This document shows positions 1,325 through 45,730 of a stretch of DNA of 49,688 bases, one piece after another. The translations under genes and the position numbers were made by a program. The stretch is from Rhodovulum sp. PH10. GTDB taxonomy: Bacteria; Pseudomonadota; Alphaproteobacteria; Rhizobiales; Xanthobacteraceae. Position 1 is the stretch's first letter. The number at the start of each line of letters is the position of its first letter. The stretch spans positions 1 through 49,688 of the forward strand of contig NZ_AKZI01000035.1 in assembly GCF_000293785.1 (NCBI RefSeq), in the 5' to 3' direction. The notes below the pieces were generated by a model that saw nothing but the letters and a program-made list of their open reading frames with translations, made no database searches and had not been told where the DNA came from.

Positions 1325-2335
1325 TTGGCCGTCGTTATTCCTTTCGAATCTCATTCCGGCGCAACCGTCGACACCCTGGTGAACCACGTGTCCGCCGACA
1401 TGGAGCGGGTCAACGCCGCGATCCTGTCGTGCACCGGGTCCGAGGTCACCATGATCCCGGAGGTCGCCAATCATCTCATCACCTCGGGGGGCAAGCGGCT
1501 GCGGCCGATGCTCACCCTCGCGATGGCGCAGCTCTCGCGCTACGCGGGGGACGGGCACGTCAAGCTCGCCGCCTCGGTCGAGTTCATGCACACGGCGACG
1601 CTCCTGCACGACGACGTCGTGGACGAGAGCGACATGCGCCGCGGCAAGCTCGCCGCCCGCATGCTGTGGGGCAACGAGGCGAGCGTGCTGGTGGGCGACT
1701 TCCTGCTCGGCCAGGCGTTCAAGCTGATGGTCGAGGTCGGCAATCTGCGGGCTTTGGAAATCCTCTCCAATGCCGCGGCGGTGATCGCCGAGGGCGAGGT
1801 GCGCCAGCTCGGCACCGCCAAGAACACCGCCACCACCGAGGACGAGTATCTCGCCGTGGTGCGGGCCAAGACCGCCGAGCTGTTCGCCGCCGCCTGCGAG
1901 GTCGGGCCGGTGATCGCCGGGTTGCCCAAGGCCGAGCAGGCCGCGTGCCGCTCGTTCGGCATGAATCTCGGCATCGCCTTCCAGCTGGTCGACGACGTGC
2001 TCGACTACGGCGGCAAGGTCGCCAAGCTCGGCAAGAACGTCGGCGACGATTTCCGCGAGGGAAAGATCACGCTGCCGGTGGTGCTGGCGTTCCGGCGCGG
2101 CTCCGATTCCGAGCGCGAGTTCTGGCGTCGCACCCAGGAGACCGGCGAGGTGACCGACTCCGACCTCGAGCACGCGGTCTCGCTGATGGTCAAGCACCGC
2201 GCCCTCGAGGACACCGTGACCCGCGCCCGCCATTACGGCTCGATCGCCCGCGACGCGCTGGCGCTGTTTCCCGATGCGCCGATCAAGCAGGCGCTCGAGG
2301 AGGCGGTGGAGTTTTCCGTCAGCCGGACGCACTGA
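1325..2335 (+). CDS. ispB: Octaprenyl (polyprenyl) diphosphate synthase
   Basis: Trans-isoprenyl diphosphate synthase of 336 residues that makes the long side chain of ubiquinone from farnesyl diphosphate and isopentenyl diphosphate. Both aspartate-rich metal sites are present: HDDVVDESD (Asp96, Asp97, Asp100) and VDDVLDYGG (Asp223, Asp224, Asp227). The GGKRLRP substrate-binding motif is near residues 55-61. The open frame runs far upstream to 326, but homologs begin with a sequence like MAVIVPFE, which matches the TTG codon at 1325; GGAGAA lies just upstream at about 1314-1319, so TTG is the likely start. It is a single gene closed by the terminator at 2363-2399. Confidence 0.93.
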   Translation: MAVVIPFESHSGATVDTLVNHVSADMERVNAAILSCTGSEVTMIPEVANHLITSGGKRLRPMLTLAMAQLSRYAGDGHVKLAASVEFMHTATLLHDDVVDESDMRRGKLAARMLWGNEASVLVGDFLLGQAFKLMVEVGNLRALEILSNAAAVIAEGEVRQLGTAKNTATTEDEYLAVVRAKTAELFAAACEVGPVIAGLPKAEQAACRSFGMNLGIAFQLVDDVLDYGGKVAKLGKNVGDDFREGKITLPVVLAFRRGSDSEREFWRRTQETGEVTDSDLEHAVSLMVKHRALEDTVTRARHYGSIARDALALFPDAPIKQALEEAVEFSVSRTH

Positions 2336-39870: not shown

Positions 39871-40299
39871 TCACTCCTTCAGCTCCTCCGCGAGCCTCCG
39901 CCGCAACCCCTCGGCATCCTTGGTCTCGCATTCCCACACCACGATCACCCCGAAACCCGCGGCCTCGAGGGCCGCGGTTTTGGCCGCGTCGCGGGCGACG
40001 TTCTGGTCGAACTTCTTCAGCCAAAACTCGCGGTTGCGGGTCGGCGTGGTGGTTTTGGGGCAGCCCGGATGGCGGTGCCAGAAGCAGCCATTGACGAAGA
40101 TCGCGAAGCGCCTCGCCTTGTTGGCGAAATCGGGCGAGCCCGGCAGCGAGCGCACGTTGCGGCGATAGAAGATGCCGAGGTCGCGCAGCACGACGGCGAC
40201 GGCGTCCTCGGGTGTCGTGCCGCGCTGGCGCACCCGGCGCATCAGGGCGGAGCGGGCCGGGTCGGTCGGGCAGGCGGGGCGCTGGCCCATCGGGCTCAT
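39871..40299 (-). CDS. vsr: Very short patch repair (Vsr) endonuclease
   Basis: A 142-residue Vsr-type endonuclease that nicks at T:G mismatches produced by deamination of 5-methylcytosine. Core motifs: TTPEDAVAVVLRDLGIFYR, GSPDF (catalytic Asp57), IFVNGCFWHRHPGC (His75, His77 and the zinc-site cysteines), then REFWLKKFDQNVARD and VIVVWECE. The start overlaps the stop of the cytosine methyltransferase (ATGA), so the two are translationally coupled, the classic dcm-vsr arrangement. Its 3' side ends abruptly next to a gene remnant. Confidence 0.93.
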   Translation of the reverse strand: MSPMGQRPACPTDPARSALMRRVRQRGTTPEDAVAVVLRDLGIFYRRNVRSLPGSPDFANKARRFAIFVNGCFWHRHPGCPKTTTPTRNREFWLKKFDQNVARDAAKTAALEAAGFGVIVVWECETKDAEGLRRRLAEELKE

Positions 40300-41498
40300 T
40301 CGGCGGCGAGCAGGCGCCGCGCCTCCCGCGATCTTTGCGGAGATTTTTCGCGCATGCGGGCGAGATGGGCGCGCACCCGCTCGTGAAAGCCGGGCACGAA
40401 GCGCAGCCGGCTGCGCTCGATCCGCGACAGGAAGCCGGCGGTGGCGCGCTCCGACAGCGGAACGCCGGGGTGGCTCAGAAACGCATGGAGCGAGGGGCGT
40501 GAAAGCCATACCGGAAACGCCGAGATCGCCACCGCCCGGCGCGCAAAACCGTCGAAGCGGGCGGCGCGCGGCCAGCGGGTGCCGGCCTCCAGCACCGCCC
40601 CGTCGCGGGCGAGATCGTAGCGTCCGGGCGCGGCGAGCCGCGTCCCGATCCAGGCCGCGACCGGCCGCGTGACGGCATTGCCGACCAGCGACCACCGCAG
40701 CGAGGCCCGCCCCGCCCGCGTCGCCGGCTCGGTCCAGCCGGCGGCAAAACCCTGCAAGCGCTCGGCGTCGCGGAGATCCGGCGTGACGATCGTGCCGTCC
40801 GGCAAGAGGATCGCCGGCGGGGAGGGAATGCCGACGGTCGAGCCGTTCTTCAGCGTCGGCACGCAGTCCGGCCCCCAGCCGAGCCCGCGAATGCCCTCGG
40901 TCCAGTAAAAGCCGTGGGCGTGGGTGTCGAGCGCGGTGTCCGGCAGCGTCGGCAGAGCCTCGTCGGCCAGCAAGACGTTTGCCGGGTCGTCGACCCGGCT
41001 CGCCAGCAAAAAAACCCGCTCGCGCCGCTGCGGCAGGAAGGCGAGCGAGTTCACCACCCGGTAGGCCCAGCGATAGCCGCGCGCCTCGAACGCCGTCACC
41101 AGCCGGTCCATCGCGCTGCCGCGGTCGAGCTGCAGCATGAAGGAGACGTTCTCCAGCAGCACGCGCGGCGGCCGGTCTTTGTCGAGCAGCCGAAACACGT
41201 GGTCGACCAGGCCCGATTTCTGCCCGCCGATGCCGGCGGTGCGGCCGGCCTGGCTCAAATCCTGGCAGGGAAAGCCGGCGGTGACCAGATCGATATCCTT
41301 CGGCAGCGCGTCCAGCGCGCCGATGTCGGCGACGCAACGGATGTCGGGGAAGCGTGCGGTGAGCACGGCGGCGGCCGGCGGCCAGATCTCGCACAACAAC
41401 GCGGTCTCGTGACCGGCCTCGTGCAGACCGGCCTCGAACCCCCCGATGCCCGCGAAAAGTCCGGCGATCCTCATCCGCACCCCGAATCGATCCTCCAT
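40296..41498 (-). CDS. DNA (cytosine-5-)-methyltransferase
   Basis: About 400 residues. C5-methyltransferase motifs in order: GLFAGIGGFEAGL (I), AGFPCQDLSQAG (IV, catalytic Cys78), LLENVSFMLQ (VI, Glu116), PQRRERVFLLA (VIII, 157-161) and VGNAVTRPVAAWIG (X). A basic C-terminal tail of about 100 residues follows motif X, longer than in Dcm. The start is uncertain: ATG 41498 (used), 41474 or 41552 are possible, none with a strong ribosome site. No restriction endonuclease gene adjoins, so with vsr it forms a solitary methylase-repair pair. The recognition sequence cannot be read from the target domain. Confidence 0.9.
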   Translation of the reverse strand: MEDRFGVRMRIAGLFAGIGGFEAGLHEAGHETALLCEIWPPAAAVLTARFPDIRCVADIGALDALPKDIDLVTAGFPCQDLSQAGRTAGIGGQKSGLVDHVFRLLDKDRPPRVLLENVSFMLQLDRGSAMDRLVTAFEARGYRWAYRVVNSLAFLPQRRERVFLLASRVDDPANVLLADEALPTLPDTALDTHAHGFYWTEGIRGLGWGPDCVPTLKNGSTVGIPSPPAILLPDGTIVTPDLRDAERLQGFAAGWTEPATRAGRASLRWSLVGNAVTRPVAAWIGTRLAAPGRYDLARDGAVLEAGTRWPRAARFDGFARRAVAISAFPVWLSRPSLHAFLSHPGVPLSERATAGFLSRIERSRLRFVPGFHERVRAHLARMREKSPQRSREARRLLAAE

Positions 41499-41677
41499 GG
41501 TCCCGACCCGCTCCGGCGACACAAGCGTTTCGGTGGCGTCGGCTCTCGCCATCACCGGAATTTTTCGGCGCGTGCGGCCCGCTTGCCCGCACAAGGCGCC
41601 TGGGCCACACTTTCCGCATTGTAGCGGGGGCGGGTGCGCGCGCGCCCCGTGTTCATTCATTGCAGGGGGGACGGATC

Positions 41678-42676
41678 ATGGCGGTGCAGACCTCTCCCGG
41701 CGGCATGCGGGCGTGGCGCTCGCTCGCCTTCGGCCGCGACGGGCTCGAGGTCGCGGAGATCCCGCGGCCGGCACCGGGACCCGGCGAGATGCTGGTGCGG
41801 GTCGAGGCGGCGGCGCTGAACTTCGCCGATCTCCTGATGCTCGACGACCGCTATCAGGTGCGCCCCGAGCGGCCCTTTACGCCCGGCCAAGAGCTCGCCG
41901 GCACGGTGATCGAGGCGGGCGCGGATGCGCCGTTCTCGGCCGGCACGCGGATCGCCGGCAAGGCGGAGACCGGCGGGTTCGCCGACTACGCCCTCGTGCG
42001 CGGTGACCATGCGCTCGCGGTGCCGCAGGATTTTGCCGCGGAAACCGCCGCGGCGCTGCCGGTCGCCTACACGACGGCGCTGGTGGCGCTCACCGAGAGC
42101 ACCGTGGTGAAGCCCGGCGAGCGGGTTCTCGTGCTGGCGGCGGCCGGCGGGGTGGGGCTCGCCTGCGTGGAGGTGGCAAAGCATCTCGGGGCGGAGGTGA
42201 TCGCCGCTGCCGGCGGCGCCGACAAATGCGCGCTCGCCCGTCGGCACGGCGCGGATGCGACCGTCGATTATCGCCACGGCAGCTTGGTCGAGCAGGTCAA
42301 GACGCTGACCAAAGGTCGGGGAGTGGACGTGGTGGTCGATTCGCTCGGCGGCGAGGCGACCCGCGACGCGCTGCGCCTGCTCGCCTGGGGCGGGCGGCTT
42401 CTGGTCACCGGCTTCTCCGGCGGGGCGATCCCGCAAATCCCGGCCAACAAGCTTTTGCTGAAACGCTTGTCGGCGATCGGCGTCTATTTCCACCCCGAGC
42501 ACGACGCGGCGATGCTGGTGCGGATCGGCCAAAAACTGTCGGAGATGGCGGCGGCCGGGGCGATCACCCCGCATGTCGGCGCCGTCTACGCCTTCGACGA
42601 GCTGCCACGCGCACTCGCCGCGCTCGCCGAGCGGGCCACCACCGGCAAGGTGATCTTGCGGGTGGCCGAGGAGTGA
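41678..42676 (+). CDS. NADPH:quinone oxidoreductase family zinc-independent alcohol dehydrogenase
   Basis: A 332-residue MDR-family protein. The N-terminal domain has GPGEMLVRVEAAALNFADLLMLDDRYQ and PGQELAGTVIEAG; the Rossmann fold nucleotide loop is LAAAGGVGLACVEVAKHLGA, followed by VVVDSLGGEATRDAL and GGRLLVTGFSGG. Zinc-binding cysteines are absent, as in quinone oxidoreductases. It uses NADPH to reduce quinones or enoyl compounds. The ATG at 41678 has a GGGGGGACGG ribosome site; an in-frame ATG at 41660 lies upstream of it. Divergent from dcm across about 180 bases. Confidence 0.92.
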   Translation: MAVQTSPGGMRAWRSLAFGRDGLEVAEIPRPAPGPGEMLVRVEAAALNFADLLMLDDRYQVRPERPFTPGQELAGTVIEAGADAPFSAGTRIAGKAETGGFADYALVRGDHALAVPQDFAAETAAALPVAYTTALVALTESTVVKPGERVLVLAAAGGVGLACVEVAKHLGAEVIAAAGGADKCALARRHGADATVDYRHGSLVEQVKTLTKGRGVDVVVDSLGGEATRDALRLLAWGGRLLVTGFSGGAIPQIPANKLLLKRLSAIGVYFHPEHDAAMLVRIGQKLSEMAAAGAITPHVGAVYAFDELPRALAALAERATTGKVILRVAEE

Positions 42677-42778
42677 GGGCGAGGGGAATCGGGCCGCGCG
42701 AGGCGCTGGCGTGCCAAGGCTAAAATTCCTATAGTGTGGCCGATGCCTCCCCGGGCCTCGATTCTCACCGGAGGTTTC

Positions 42779-43408
42779 ATGCTGACGCATGCGCAAATCT
42801 GGACGGCGCTCGACCGCCTGGCGGCGCGTGCCGGCCTGTCGGCCTCCGGGCTCGCCAAGCGGGCCGGGCTCGACCCGACCACCTTCAACAAGTCGAAGCG
42901 CATCACCCCGGACGGGCGGGCGCGCTGGCCCTCGACCGAGTCGGTGGCGAAATCGCTGGCGGCGACCGGCACGCCGATCGAGGACTTCGTCAAGCTGATC
43001 ACCGACGGCGGCGCGCCGGCCGAGCAGGCGGTGCCGCTGATCGGCCTCGCCGAGGCGGGATCGGGCGGCTATTTCGACGACGGCGGCTTCCCGGTCGGCA
43101 AGGGCTGGGACGAGATCGCCTTTCCGGCGGTCGAGGACGAGCACGCCTATGCGCTGGAAATCTCCGGCGATTCCATGCAGCCCGCCTATCGCGACGGCAC
43201 CGTGATCATCGTCTCGCCCTCGGCGCCGATCCGGCGCGGCGACCGCGTGGTGGTGAAGACCCGCGAGGGCGAGGTGATGGCGAAGGAGCTCAAGCGGAAG
43301 ACCTCGAAGACGCTCGAGCTGCGCTCGCTCAATCCCGAGCACCAGGACCGCACGCTCGGCACCGAGGAGGTTTTGTGGGTCGCCCGGATCGTGTGGGCGA
43401 GCCAGTAG
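42779..43408 (+). CDS. LexA/CI-like repressor with S24 peptidase domain
   Basis: A 209-residue regulator. N-terminal helix-turn-helix (ARAGLSASGLAKRAGLDPTTFNKSKR) followed by an S24 domain. The self-cleavage dyad is complete: Ser132 in SGDSMQPAYRDG and Lys169 in GEVMAKELKR, spaced 37 residues as in LexA. An Ala-Gly bond in GLAEAGSGG (residues 93-94) is a candidate cleavage site. GGAGG upstream supports ATG 42779. TATAGT at 42730-42735 may be the -10 box. Chromosomal relatives of this regulator are widespread in Rhizobiales; there are no phage genes around. Target genes unknown. Confidence 0.88.
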   Translation: MLTHAQIWTALDRLAARAGLSASGLAKRAGLDPTTFNKSKRITPDGRARWPSTESVAKSLAATGTPIEDFVKLITDGGAPAEQAVPLIGLAEAGSGGYFDDGGFPVGKGWDEIAFPAVEDEHAYALEISGDSMQPAYRDGTVIIVSPSAPIRRGDRVVVKTREGEVMAKELKRKTSKTLELRSLNPEHQDRTLGTEEVLWVARIVWASQ

Positions 43409-43876
43409 GCGGCGCGCCGCCGTCGCGGGTGCGCTCGAGGCGCATCGACGGCTCTCGGGCGCGGCGTCGTGCTCACCTCACTGGCGGGGCGTCGTCGGCG
43501 GGTCGTCGTCGGCAAACCGTCACGAAAGCCGGCTAGTCTCTTCATGTCGGCCCGCGGTGCTCGGTCCGGGCGGGGGGTTGGCAAGAGCGTTTGCGTCCCC
43601 ATATCCCGTATCGAGCGGCCTGTGCCGCACCCCTCTCACGCGCCGCCTGACCGCGGATGTACCGGCAGGTTCGCGCCGTGAGACGGGGACGCGGCGGGTC
43701 GCCGTCTTTCTTTTTCCGCCGAAAACACGCTGTTCCGCTGAAAAGTCGTTCGAGGAGGCGCCGACCGTTCCGGGCGTCGTCCGCGCCGGCTCGGGCATTT
43801 TCATGCCGGCTCGCACCACGACCGGCAGAGGAGACCCGCGGGTAAACAGGCCCACGCCCGAGCGGTCGCTTGCCGG
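43409..43876. other. Intergenic region before the tRNA
   Basis: 468 bases between the S24 regulator and the 3' end of the convergent tRNA. No credible gene: the open frames have no ribosome site or recognisable product. No T-tract terminator for either side was recognised. Confidence 0.5.
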
Positions 43877-43955
43877 TGGAGGCCCAGCCTGGACTCGAAC
43901 CAGGATTTGAAGGGCTTTGCGGGCACCTTCCGCGTCACCATTCCGCCACCGGGCC
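43877..43955 (-). tRNA. Unusual tRNA, tRNA-Cys(GCA)-like, with enlarged anticodon arm
   Basis: A 79-base cloverleaf with encoded CCA. On the minus strand: acceptor GGCCCGG pairs with CTGGGCC (one G-T); linker TG; D arm GCG-GAATGGTGA-CGC; G26; anticodon stem GAAGG/CCTTC; variable AAAT; T arm CCTGG-TTCGAGT-CCAGG; discriminator T73; CCA. The anticodon loop is TGCCCGCAAAGC, 12 bases instead of 7. It can be folded further with a bulged T and a GC/GC pair, leaving the seven-base loop CCGCAAA, which would place GCA (Cys) in the anticodon with C at position 33 instead of U. U73 and GCAAA fit cysteine identity. The amino acid is thus probable, not certain. It has its own promoter upstream. Confidence 0.75.
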
Positions 43956-43963
43956 ACGAGCGC

Positions 43964-43992
43964 ATCCTAGGAGGGGTGCCTGCGTAATGCAA
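43964..43992 (-). promoter_or_regulatory. Promoter of the unusual tRNA
   Basis: On the minus strand TTGCAT (complement of 43987-43992) and TAGGAT (complement of 43964-43969) are separated by 17 bases. Eight bases separate the -10 box from the mature tRNA 5' end, typical of a stable-RNA promoter. It shows that the tRNA gene is likely expressed. Confidence 0.75.
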
Positions 43993-44030
43993 CGTTGACA
44001 CCCCGTTAGGCTTAACGCACCGGTGCGGGC

Positions 44031-44144
44031 AAGCGGGTGCCCGGTCATCGGGCGTCGACAATGGGTGCCCGCCGATCGGGCGTCCGGCAAGAGCGCCCGG
44101 CAAGCGGGCGTCGGGCAAGAGCGCGCGGCAAGCGGGCGTCGGGC
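44031..44144. repeat. Four-copy tandem repeat of 28-29 bases
   Basis: Units at 44031-44059, 44060-44088, 44089-44116 and 44117-44144. The last two differ by one base; all share the ending GGGCGTC followed by C or G. It lies between the tRNA promoter and the coiled-coil gene. Confidence 0.8.
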
Positions 44145-44290
44145 TTGCGCTTCGCCCGACCCGCAGGGGCTCCGTGGCGGACTTCGGCGTGACGGCTGTT
44201 CGCGACGGACCGCGGCGATATCTCCTCGGACAAATCCTGCCCGAACCGGCGACGGTTCCGGGTCGAAGTGCTCGGAAGAGGCGACTGTCG

Positions 44291-45523
44291 CTACTGCGCC
44301 GCCGCCGGCGTCGGACCCGCCGCCACCCGTGCCTGCAGCGCCCGGATGCGGGCGACCAGGTCGCCCTGCGGCGCGCCGTTCGCGGTATTCGTGCCGGCGG
44401 CACCCGTGCCAGCGGCATTCGTGCCCGCGGACCCGGCCGGGGCGGGGGCGTCGCCCGAAAGCATCGCCTCGATCGGCGACTCCGGCCCTTCCAGCGCCCG
44501 CGTCAACCGTACCACCTCGGCGGCGATGTCGTTGATCCGCTCGCGCAGCAGCGCGCTCTCCAGCCGCTCGCTCTCCCACGAGCTTTCCGCGCCGACGCGA
44601 CCGGCGGCGATCTCGGCGCGCAGCCGGGTGTTTTCCTCGCGCAAGGCGTCGATCTCGCGCGTCTCGGCGGCCCGTTCGGCCCGCGCCGCCTGCGCCCGAT
44701 CGGCCAGCTCGCGGGCCCGCCGGGCCTCGTGCTCGCGTTCGACCAGCAGGCGTCCCTGCTCGGTCAGCCGCTCCTCCAGCTCGCGCACCCGCGCGCCGAG
44801 CCCCTCGGCCTCGGCGGCCTGCGCCGCGAGCTGCCGCTCGAGCTCGGCCCGGCGGCCGGCGATCGCCGCGCTGCGGCTCCGCTCGGCGGCCAGCTCCTCG
44901 CCGGCGGCGGCCGCCGCCTGCCGCTCCTGCTCCATCCGGGCGGCGACCTCGCGCACGTCCTTCTGGGCCTGGGCGAGCTGCGACTTCAGCGACTCGACCT
45001 GGGTGCGCAGCGTCGCGATCTCGATCCGCTGGCTGTCCGACACCGCGGTGCGCTCGTCGAGCGCCGCCACCAGCGTCGCCAGCTCGGTCTCCTTGGCGGC
45101 GAGCCGCTGCTCGACCGTCTGCGCCCGGTCGCTCTTGAGCGTGTACTCGTGCTCGGTGGTCTCCAGCTGGTCGCGCAGCGCCGCCTCACGCGCCTCGACC
45201 TGGCGGATCGTCGCCGATTTCTCCTCCAGCTCCTGCTGGAGCTTGCCGATCGCCATCGACTTCTTGCCGAGCTCGCCGAGCTGGCTCGCGGTCTTCGCCT
45301 TGAGCTGCTCGACGCTCATCTCGAGCCGGCGGGTCGACATCGCGAACTCGGCCCGCAGCTGGTCCTTCTCGGCCTGGATTTCCGCCATCGAGAACGGGGT
45401 CGCCGCCTCGAGCCGCTTCATCGTCAGCCGGACCGCGCGGTTGTGCACCAGCGGCACGAACAGCAGGTTGAACAGGCTCGCGACCAGAAAACCGATCCCG
45501 AACAGCATGATCTGCTCGACCAT
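44291..45523 (-). CDS. Membrane-anchored long coiled-coil protein
   Basis: About 410 residues. A single N-terminal membrane helix (MVEQIMLFGIGFLVASLFNL) is followed by VHNRAVRLTMKRLEAATPFS and then about 300 residues of heptad-rich coiled coil (AEIQAEKDQLRAEFAMSTRR onward), ending in a Gly/Ala/Thr-rich tail with AAGTGAAGTN-type repeats. The HNRAVRLTxRRLEAxxPxSmaEIQADKDQLRAEFAxSxRRLE block is a recurring Rhizobiales signature, seen in unnamed proteins. GGAGG eight bases upstream supports ATG 45523; the frame opens at 45559. A structural role at the inner membrane is likely; exact function unknown. Confidence 0.8.
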   Translation of the reverse strand: MVEQIMLFGIGFLVASLFNLLFVPLVHNRAVRLTMKRLEAATPFSMAEIQAEKDQLRAEFAMSTRRLEMSVEQLKAKTASQLGELGKKSMAIGKLQQELEEKSATIRQVEAREAALRDQLETTEHEYTLKSDRAQTVEQRLAAKETELATLVAALDERTAVSDSQRIEIATLRTQVESLKSQLAQAQKDVREVAARMEQERQAAAAAGEELAAERSRSAAIAGRRAELERQLAAQAAEAEGLGARVRELEERLTEQGRLLVEREHEARRARELADRAQAARAERAAETREIDALREENTRLRAEIAAGRVGAESSWESERLESALLRERINDIAAEVVRLTRALEGPESPIEAMLSGDAPAPAGSAGTNAAGTGAAGTNTANGAPQGDLVARIRALQARVAAGPTPAAAQ

Positions 45524-45730
45524 GGCGAGCGCCTCCGGCTTCGTGCGGGGCCGGGCCACCTTGCGCGGGTGTTGGCAGGTCTGCCGGCGACGGACGGATA
45601 TCGTGTCAAATGATCACCGTTCCCGGCCGGGAGCCAGTCGAAAACTCCGCCGATCACGCAACGGTGTGCCGCTCCGGCGTCGCGCCGAAGGGCGTCCGGA
45701 GGCGGAACGGGGAGGCGGAGCGCGGCCGGG

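Follow-up and report, generated by a model that had tools for sequence, protein, structure and literature searches.

To our knowledge, the tRNAs known to work outside the ribosome are isolated examples, most of which retain an intact decoding arm. The tRNA-Gly that Staphylococcus aureus uses for peptidoglycan has a normal anticodon arm and known partner enzymes. It is non-proteinogenic and is presented as a dedicated paralogue for non-ribosomal transfer with changed T-stem pairs (PMC9976931). Bacillus cereus tRNA-Other, which its description judges to be tRNA-like, non-translational, regulated and dispensable, keeps a Trp anticodon, occurs in the B. cereus group and is part of larger transcripts (PMC3399842). 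The selC*-type tRNA-Cys and the allo-tRNAs depart from the canonical cloverleaf and have a longer anticodon stem; selC*, which has tRNA-Cys identity, is reported with an acceptor/T arm of 8/4, an anticodon that is GCA or UCA and, in some cases, a CysRS of its own (PMC7609411). Published accounts of tmRNA describe a tRNA-like domain in which the upper half of the tRNA is kept and the anticodon arm replaced, which takes alanine and is joined to an mRNA part.

The window, by which we mean the whole stretch of 49,688 nucleotides analysed, contains an RNA gene that, judged from its sequence, belongs to a conserved RNA family related to tRNA-Cys. The feature is real and conserved, and it is very probably functional. 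The gene and its parts are the following:

43877..43955, minus strand: predicted non-decoding tRNA-Cys-like RNA gene, 79 nt including the encoded CCA (ARAGORN, fold, covariance model R1)
43949..43955, minus strand: 5' acceptor strand GGCCCGG (sequence)
43909..43930, minus strand: remodelled anticodon arm, GAAGG, bulged T, GC / GC, CCTTC (fold, family arm shapes, covariation)
43916-43922, minus strand: anticodon-arm loop CCGCAAA (fold)
43888..43904, minus strand: T arm CCTGG-TTCGAGT-CCAGG (column entropy in the paired set)
43877..43887, minus strand: 3' acceptor strand CTGGGCC, discriminator U73 and CCA (sequence)

The original prediction had placed a tRNA at 43877..43955, and ARAGORN returned the same coordinates, with the gene on the minus strand and the label tRNA-Cys(gca). 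RNA folding gave a cloverleaf as both the minimum-energy and the centroid structure, with an acceptor of 7 bp, a D arm of 3 bp, a T arm of 5 bp and a variable region of 4 nt; the predicted cloverleaf with a 7-bp acceptor, a 5-bp T arm and an encoded CCA was thereby reproduced by fold and sequence. The anticodon arm of this structure is a bulged 7-bp stem, GAAGG-(U bulge)-GC / GC-CCUUC, around the loop CCGCAAA with a C at position 33, which is the refolded arm that had been proposed, while the 12-base loop on GAAGG/CCTTC, also proposed, is obtained when the inner GC pairs are left out. The folding energy of the RNA is unremarkable (z -0.39; 61 of 200 shuffled sequences fold equally well). The argument that the structure is not due to chance rests instead on the conservation of homologues and on both-sided changes in all four helices.

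The proposed check with tRNA models gave a divided answer: ARAGORN reports a tRNA-Cys(gca) and the Rfam tRNA model leaves the element out. At E<=0.001 this model finds 43 tRNAs in the genome itself, all scoring at least 51.7 bits, and the window element is not among them; nor is it matched at E<=1 in a local search over 42500-45500, and it fails the RF00005 gathering cut-off (29 bits). One of nine relatives' elements tested against the model was matched (L004, 46.1 bits). The discriminator U73 and the relatedness to tRNA-Cys bear out the cysteine-like identity that had been suggested. With U73 and the CCA end the element has the acceptor end of an elongator tRNA-Cys, and it lacks the 5-bp stem that closes a 7-nt loop containing U33 and GCA. 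The gene is not needed for cysteine codons: an ordinary tRNA-Cys, whose presence elsewhere in the genome was to be checked, lies on another contig (G000:C51:8081-8154).

Family members were further compared with ordinary tRNA-Cys in a paired set of 24 carrier genomes, each member being set beside the ordinary gene of its genome. An ordinary tRNA-Cys(GCA) is present in all 24; ARAGORN labels every one of these genes tRNA-Cys(gca), with the loop TGCAAAA or TGCAAAT, and distributes nine different labels over the 24 family members, including Val, Gly, Arg, His and Pro. Because of these nine labels, and of the one Rfam match in nine, automatic annotation would mislabel many members. U73 is found in 24/24 members and in 24/24 ordinary tRNA-Cys, the encoded CCA in 23/24 and 24/24, respectively, and the 5' acceptor strand GGCCCGG in 20 of the 24 members. 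The T arm has a mean column entropy of 0.15 bits in the family versus 0.47 bits in the ordinary tRNA-Cys of the same genomes, a difference that is a strong hint and not proof, because similarity searches with a model or query supplied both sets, and the selection by DNA similarity or model score biases the entropies toward conserved members. The acceptor stem of the family, at 0.26 against 0.11, is slightly more variable, which does not favour the reading, preferred below, of the RNA as a cysteine carrier or CysRS ligand.

Support for the structure comes from covariation in 15 divergent members, which were aligned without reference to structure. Standard pairs fill 99.7% of cells and both-sided changes occur at 12 of 21 pairs; no shuffle out of 500 attains either figure, and slid structures stay well below them. 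The changes are present in all four helices, affecting all six pairs of the anticodon stem and four of the seven pairs of the acceptor. The original prediction had named missing copies in relatives and decaying stems as the marks of a pseudo-tRNA; for the family, the copies are conserved and the stems covary, and a pseudogene was rejected for the family on these two grounds.

The anticodon arm covaries but, as far as its sequences tell, is remodelled. Its shapes were read in 122 distinct family sequences picked by a regular expression on the acceptor and T arm, and the conservation of these two arms in the set, with U at T-stem position 51 in 122/122, is partly by construction because that expression selected it. 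A 6-nt loop is folded by 81 of these sequences, GUGCAA (43/122) and GUGCAU (23/122) being the commonest loops, and most family members have RUGCAW loops. GCA lies in the loop of 111 sequences and is missing in 11; the loop CUGCAAA (CTGCAAA in the DNA) occurs once, on a 6-bp stem. Within the window's genus, four of five members carry a CGACY loop that lacks GCA; in the genus g81, all five loci read (six were found) show a GGAA tetraloop on a 7-8-bp stem. The minimum-energy fold of one g81 RNA, L200, is not a cloverleaf, and the cloverleaf is preferred because the anticodon and D stems change in step among the g81 sequences (by inspection). Judging from these loops, a readable anticodon is evidently not needed in at least two genera, and a stable capped stem has taken the place of the loop. 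GG is found in the D loop of 23/122 sequences, and apart from UGCA the family sequences contain no conserved single-stranded seed.

These arm shapes bear on whether the RNA could still translate. Enlarged anticodon loops occur among frameshift suppressors, and an unusual translating tRNA whose enlarged loop (6 nt, with an extra closing pair) leads to frameshifting or recoding at cysteine codons would be in keeping with GCA in 111 of the 122 loops. Such a tRNA is nevertheless improbable, as a 6-bp stem with both-sided changes in its pairs closes the loop, as GCA is absent from 4/5 members of the window's genus and from the five g81 loci read, and as only 23/122 sequences have the D-loop GG. The CGACY and GGAA loops, together with the ordinary tRNA-Cys in 24/24 carriers, likewise go against the earlier suggestions that the RNA decodes cysteine poorly or reads another codon, although the members that keep GCA (111/122) might, strictly speaking, still decode. 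The further suggestion of a role outside translation gains support from the loss of the decoding loop in two genera and from the same 24 ordinary genes.

A DNA search of 60 relatives with the window element gave matches in 19; L015, L017, L019 and L021-L023 were set aside from the matches (ordinary tRNA-Cys, another tRNA and short matches). The covariance model R1 was built from 17 sequences, one of which is the window copy with its score of 83.7 bits. By a manual count of the matches to this model, 95 of the 198 genomes sampled from its taxonomic family carry the RNA at >=76 bits, seven of the 95 having two or three such matches. Two copies stand in tandem between a methyltransferase gene and carB in G109 (L209), two of the three copies of G148 are located elsewhere (L206-L208), and the extra copies of L207 and L212 lie directly before what we take to be another tRNA gene (GGTGGCYGAGTGGCTTAAGGC..., serine-type). 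Matches taken as ordinary tRNA-Cys score at most 73.7 bits (40 genomes, with more candidates scored), and the cut at 76 bits is conservative, as diverged copies exist below it. The stretch behind the methyltransferase gene in 20 genomes below the cut contains a weaker or diverged copy in four (73.3, 72.4, 63.5 and 48 bits) and no RNA copy in 16, so the RNA is dispensable. One strongly diverged copy, L231 (G065, 2109-2182, minus strand, 48 bits), has a changed anticodon and T loop and is possibly decaying or on a new path, and the copy of L221 is without the encoded CCA. Degraded-looking copies such as these two and the 16 empty stretches of 20 would be expected if the RNA were a functionless, dying duplicate of tRNA-Cys. 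There is hardly any chance that this is the right account of the family, against which stand the both-sided changes in all four helices, a T arm less variable than that of working tRNA-Cys, a promoter element common to the family and members in three families.

Beyond its own taxonomic family, the RNA was matched at E<=1e-15 in 17 of 297 genomes sampled from the order, namely ten of the own family, six of the genus g81 (family f35) and one of the family f6. A class sample of 385 genomes, which includes some of the order, gave no match outside the order, and at E<=3e-15 only the window genome and one family member were found. An exact-pattern search of named genomes returned at least 119 stretches; among the 80 matches listed by name most are from Bradyrhizobium, and Rhodopseudomonas, Nitrobacter, Afipia, Tardiphaga and a Pseudolabrys MAG are also represented. 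The family RNAs span 73-81 nt. An origin from a mobile element was rejected, one member (L018) with short flanks giving no match to plasmid and phage records at E<=1e-5. A description of the family was not found in the literature searched. Ten Bradyrhizobium sRNAs have been reported, and for one of them, BjsR1, homologues in Rhodopseudomonas are given (PMC5082802).

Upstream of the RNA, three promoter-like features can be recognized:

43964..43969, minus strand: -10-like box TAGGAT with 4/6 consensus matches, ending 8 nt before the mature 5' end (sequence, by-eye genus comparison)
43987..43992, minus strand: -35-like box TTGCAT, separated from the -10-like box by 17 nt (sequence, by-eye genus comparison)
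44005..44016, no strand assigned: promoter element, GTTAGGCTTAAC on the plus strand (TTAR-N2-TTAA type, at about -58), with TTAGGCTTAA on the opposite strand at 44006-44015 (sequence, family promoters)

The original prediction of an own promoter held, as TTGCGR-N17-TANCNT stands at the same place in four relatives of the window's genus (by eye); its description of the -35/-10 boxes as near ideal did not, since a sigma-70 scan requiring 9/12 matches failed to find those of the window. Among 107 distinct upstream regions of the family, TTAA is present within -75..-45 in 97, versus 1.5% of control windows, and ordinary tRNA-Cys genes have it there in 0/24. TTAR[GC]NTTA was found within -90..-40 in 53 of the 107, mostly at -58, compared with 0.4% in the control (both strands counted). 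Alignment of 52 regions on this element reveals, by eye, a -35-like RTGGC and a -10-like AATGAT, the latter ending, in the most frequent spacing, 6 nt ahead of the mature 5' end. Because the -10-like boxes end 6 or 8 nt before the RNA and are accompanied by the promoter element, transcription likely starts at or beside nucleotide 1. The element presumably resembles the TTAA-N7-TTAA sites of the cell-cycle regulator CtrA. At the other end, a hairpin-plus-T site lies no more than 90 nt away in nine of 121 members, against 4.3% of control windows, so that no general enrichment is clear; the five g81 loci account for five of these nine.

A regulon marked by TTAGGGTTAAY is not claimed, 18 sites in eight genomes standing against 17 for a reversed-pattern control, and three of the 18 are the RNA's own promoters. 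As a separate observation, several genomes have TTAGGGTTAAY in corresponding intergenic positions (L241-L258), some of them with TTAA-N7-TTAA nearby; the neighbouring genes are a TPR lipoprotein / M17 peptidase pair, a FeeM-type synthase and a Poly_export (polysaccharide export) gene.

A promoter element that is absent from 24/24 ordinary tRNA-Cys genes would also suit an uncharged tRNA mimic made on demand from a regulated promoter, which might act as a decoy or competitive ligand of CysRS, of a tRNA-modifying enzyme or of a tRNA-cutting toxin, or as a regulatory sRNA with a tRNA body. The conservation of the acceptor and T arm and not of the decoding end agrees with such a mimic, and the absence of the RNA from many relatives fits an accessory regulator. 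A parallel is offered by the pseudo-tRNA tRNA-Other of B. cereus, for which poor charging and regulatory effects are reported (PMC3399842). On the other hand, a decoy does not clearly need the U73 kept by 24/24 members or the CCA kept by 23/24, and neither a target or partner nor, UGCA apart, a conserved seed was found. An uncharged mimic is a real possibility, although we would put it clearly short of even.

The surroundings of the gene vary between groups. The gene upstream in the window is:

44291..45559, minus strand: coiled-coil protein gene, upstream on the same strand as the RNA (syntenic in four genus relatives; weak Pfam UPF0242 match below cut-off)

This gene, a neighbour of the RNA by position, ends 335 nt before it in the window species, where the interval 43956-44290 is missing the DUF2927 gene that four relatives of the genus (L038-L041; Pfam run on one) have directly upstream of the RNA, at 55-95 nt. 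Outside the genus, a class I methyltransferase gene (Pfam) lies directly upstream in 10 of the first 12 loci, at 54-124 nt, and the large downstream gene reads to us as carB. Seven later loci have what we take to be the order methyltransferase, RNA, carB, greA, six of them with a presumed carA a few kb upstream; the other carriers in that set of later loci have none of the methyltransferase, carB, greA and carA markers. The RNA of the five g81 loci is found 81-260 nt behind a gene that we read as gyrA, and no neighbouring gene is common to all families that carry the RNA. Such frequent proximity to an upstream gene on the same strand (methyltransferase, DUF2927 or presumed gyrA) might suggest that the element is a processing mark at the 3' end of the upstream mRNA, a tRNA-like structure cut by RNase P with no free RNA. 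We consider this unlikely, given that the promoter element and the -10/-35-like boxes stand between the upstream gene and the RNA, that the upstream gene differs between groups and that the coiled-coil gene of the window species ends as far as 335 nt away.

Other features of the window and its relatives were noted in passing. A match to the alphaproteobacterial sRNA ar35 at 43573-43712 (plus strand; 23.3 bits, below the cut-off of 45) converges with the tRNA-like gene. A relative from the same genus has a better ar35 match of 36.4 bits, also below the cut-off, at the corresponding position (L003, 1985-2135, minus strand), and another (L009) has none at E<=0.5. From the translation alone, the open frame at 40296-41660 (minus strand) presumably encodes a DNA cytosine methyltransferase, and the downstream part of 39871-41619 (minus strand), which follows it, what we take to be a Vsr-type mismatch endonuclease.

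Three candidate partners were considered and rejected. The class I methyltransferase is not an obligate partner: 163 of the 198 own-family genomes have its gene, including many in which the RNA does not reach 76 bits, and the window genome has it on another contig. A second CysRS was looked for in 40 genomes, and all 40 have one match over the cut-off; G425 has in addition a weak, partial match of 41.8 bits. Enzymes of the MprF/LPG-synthase type (PF09924) are not shared by carriers, being present in 3/3 g81 genomes (G231, G272 and G425) and in none of the other 37 tested. PF09924 is absent from 20/20 own-family carriers tested and from G321, and also from 16 presumed non-carriers, one of which (G065) has the strongly diverged RNA copy.

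A role outside normal protein synthesis is probable on this evidence. Our preferred reading, held tentatively and at somewhat under an even chance, is a dedicated non-decoding tRNA that serves as a cysteine carrier or CysRS ligand. The RNA would be transcribed from its own promoter with an upstream activator-type element, starting at or next to nucleotide 1, and little or no 5' trimming would therefore be needed. The one CysRS of the cell would charge it with cysteine through the U73 acceptor end, in a way that depends on the anticodon only in part or not at all. Outside the ribosome, the RNA would then act in its charged form or as a ligand of CysRS or EF-Tu, most likely donating the amino acid to a putative transferase. 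Charging that does without the anticodon is plausible, if perhaps weak, since U73 alone gives minihelices cysteine identity and GCA in the anticodon ranks among the major determinants for CysRS (PMC9976931). It is possibly weak or absent in the 11 of 122 sequences in which GCA is missing. That GCA is kept in 111/122 and dropped in two genera suggests that the contact between anticodon and CysRS mattered and could be lost; it also counts against a purely anticodon-independent role, which does not require GCA. Further points against the preferred reading are the single CysRS per genome, the absence of PF09924 from the own-family carriers tested, the lack of a common neighbouring gene and the dispensability of the RNA.

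A more specific form of the preferred reading is rather doubtful: an anticodon-free cysteine carrier of Bradyrhizobium, Rhodopseudomonas and relatives, charged through U73 only, leaderless, made from a separate, possibly cell-cycle type promoter and delivering cysteine for non-ribosomal use. The family as such, present in many genomes of well-studied soil and plant-associated bacteria, predicts a user of a cysteine-type tRNA body. It also offers a direct test case of whether CysRS charges a natural tRNA without an anticodon.

Compared with the known systems, the family is, from its sequences, probably a non-translational tRNA. The window RNA shares with ordinary bacterial tRNA-Cys(GCA) the GGCC start, the D-stem sequence, U73 and CCA, and its copy has 75% identity to a relative's tRNA-Cys; ordinary tRNA-Cys is therefore the likely ancestor. 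Where the ordinary genes have TGCAAA loops, the family has 6-nt, CCGCAAA, CGACY or GGAA loops, and it differs further by a longer stem, an own promoter element and U51 in the T stem. By sequence it resembles a pseudo-tRNA in that a conserved tRNA body, with decoding lost, is present in addition to an ordinary tRNA, with the qualification that 111/122 members keep GCA. To B. cereus tRNA-Other it is akin in being tRNA-like, probably non-translational, apparently regulated and dispensable, but that RNA, as described, is not cysteine-type (PMC3399842). The peptidoglycan tRNA-Gly of S. aureus, likewise a dedicated paralogue with changes in the T stem, carries glycine. The cysteine identity, the unusual cloverleaf and the longer anticodon stem recall selC*; in place of its 8/4 acceptor/T arm and longer variable arm, the family has 7/5 arms (a 7-bp acceptor and a 5-bp T stem) and a 4-nt variable region, with no readable anticodon in two genera and one CysRS. 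As in the tRNA-like domain of tmRNA, the upper half of the tRNA is kept and the anticodon arm is altered, but the family consists of predicted free cysteine-type RNAs of 73-81 nt, in which the contrast is between an anticodon arm remodelled in nearly every member and a T arm less variable than in working tRNA-Cys.
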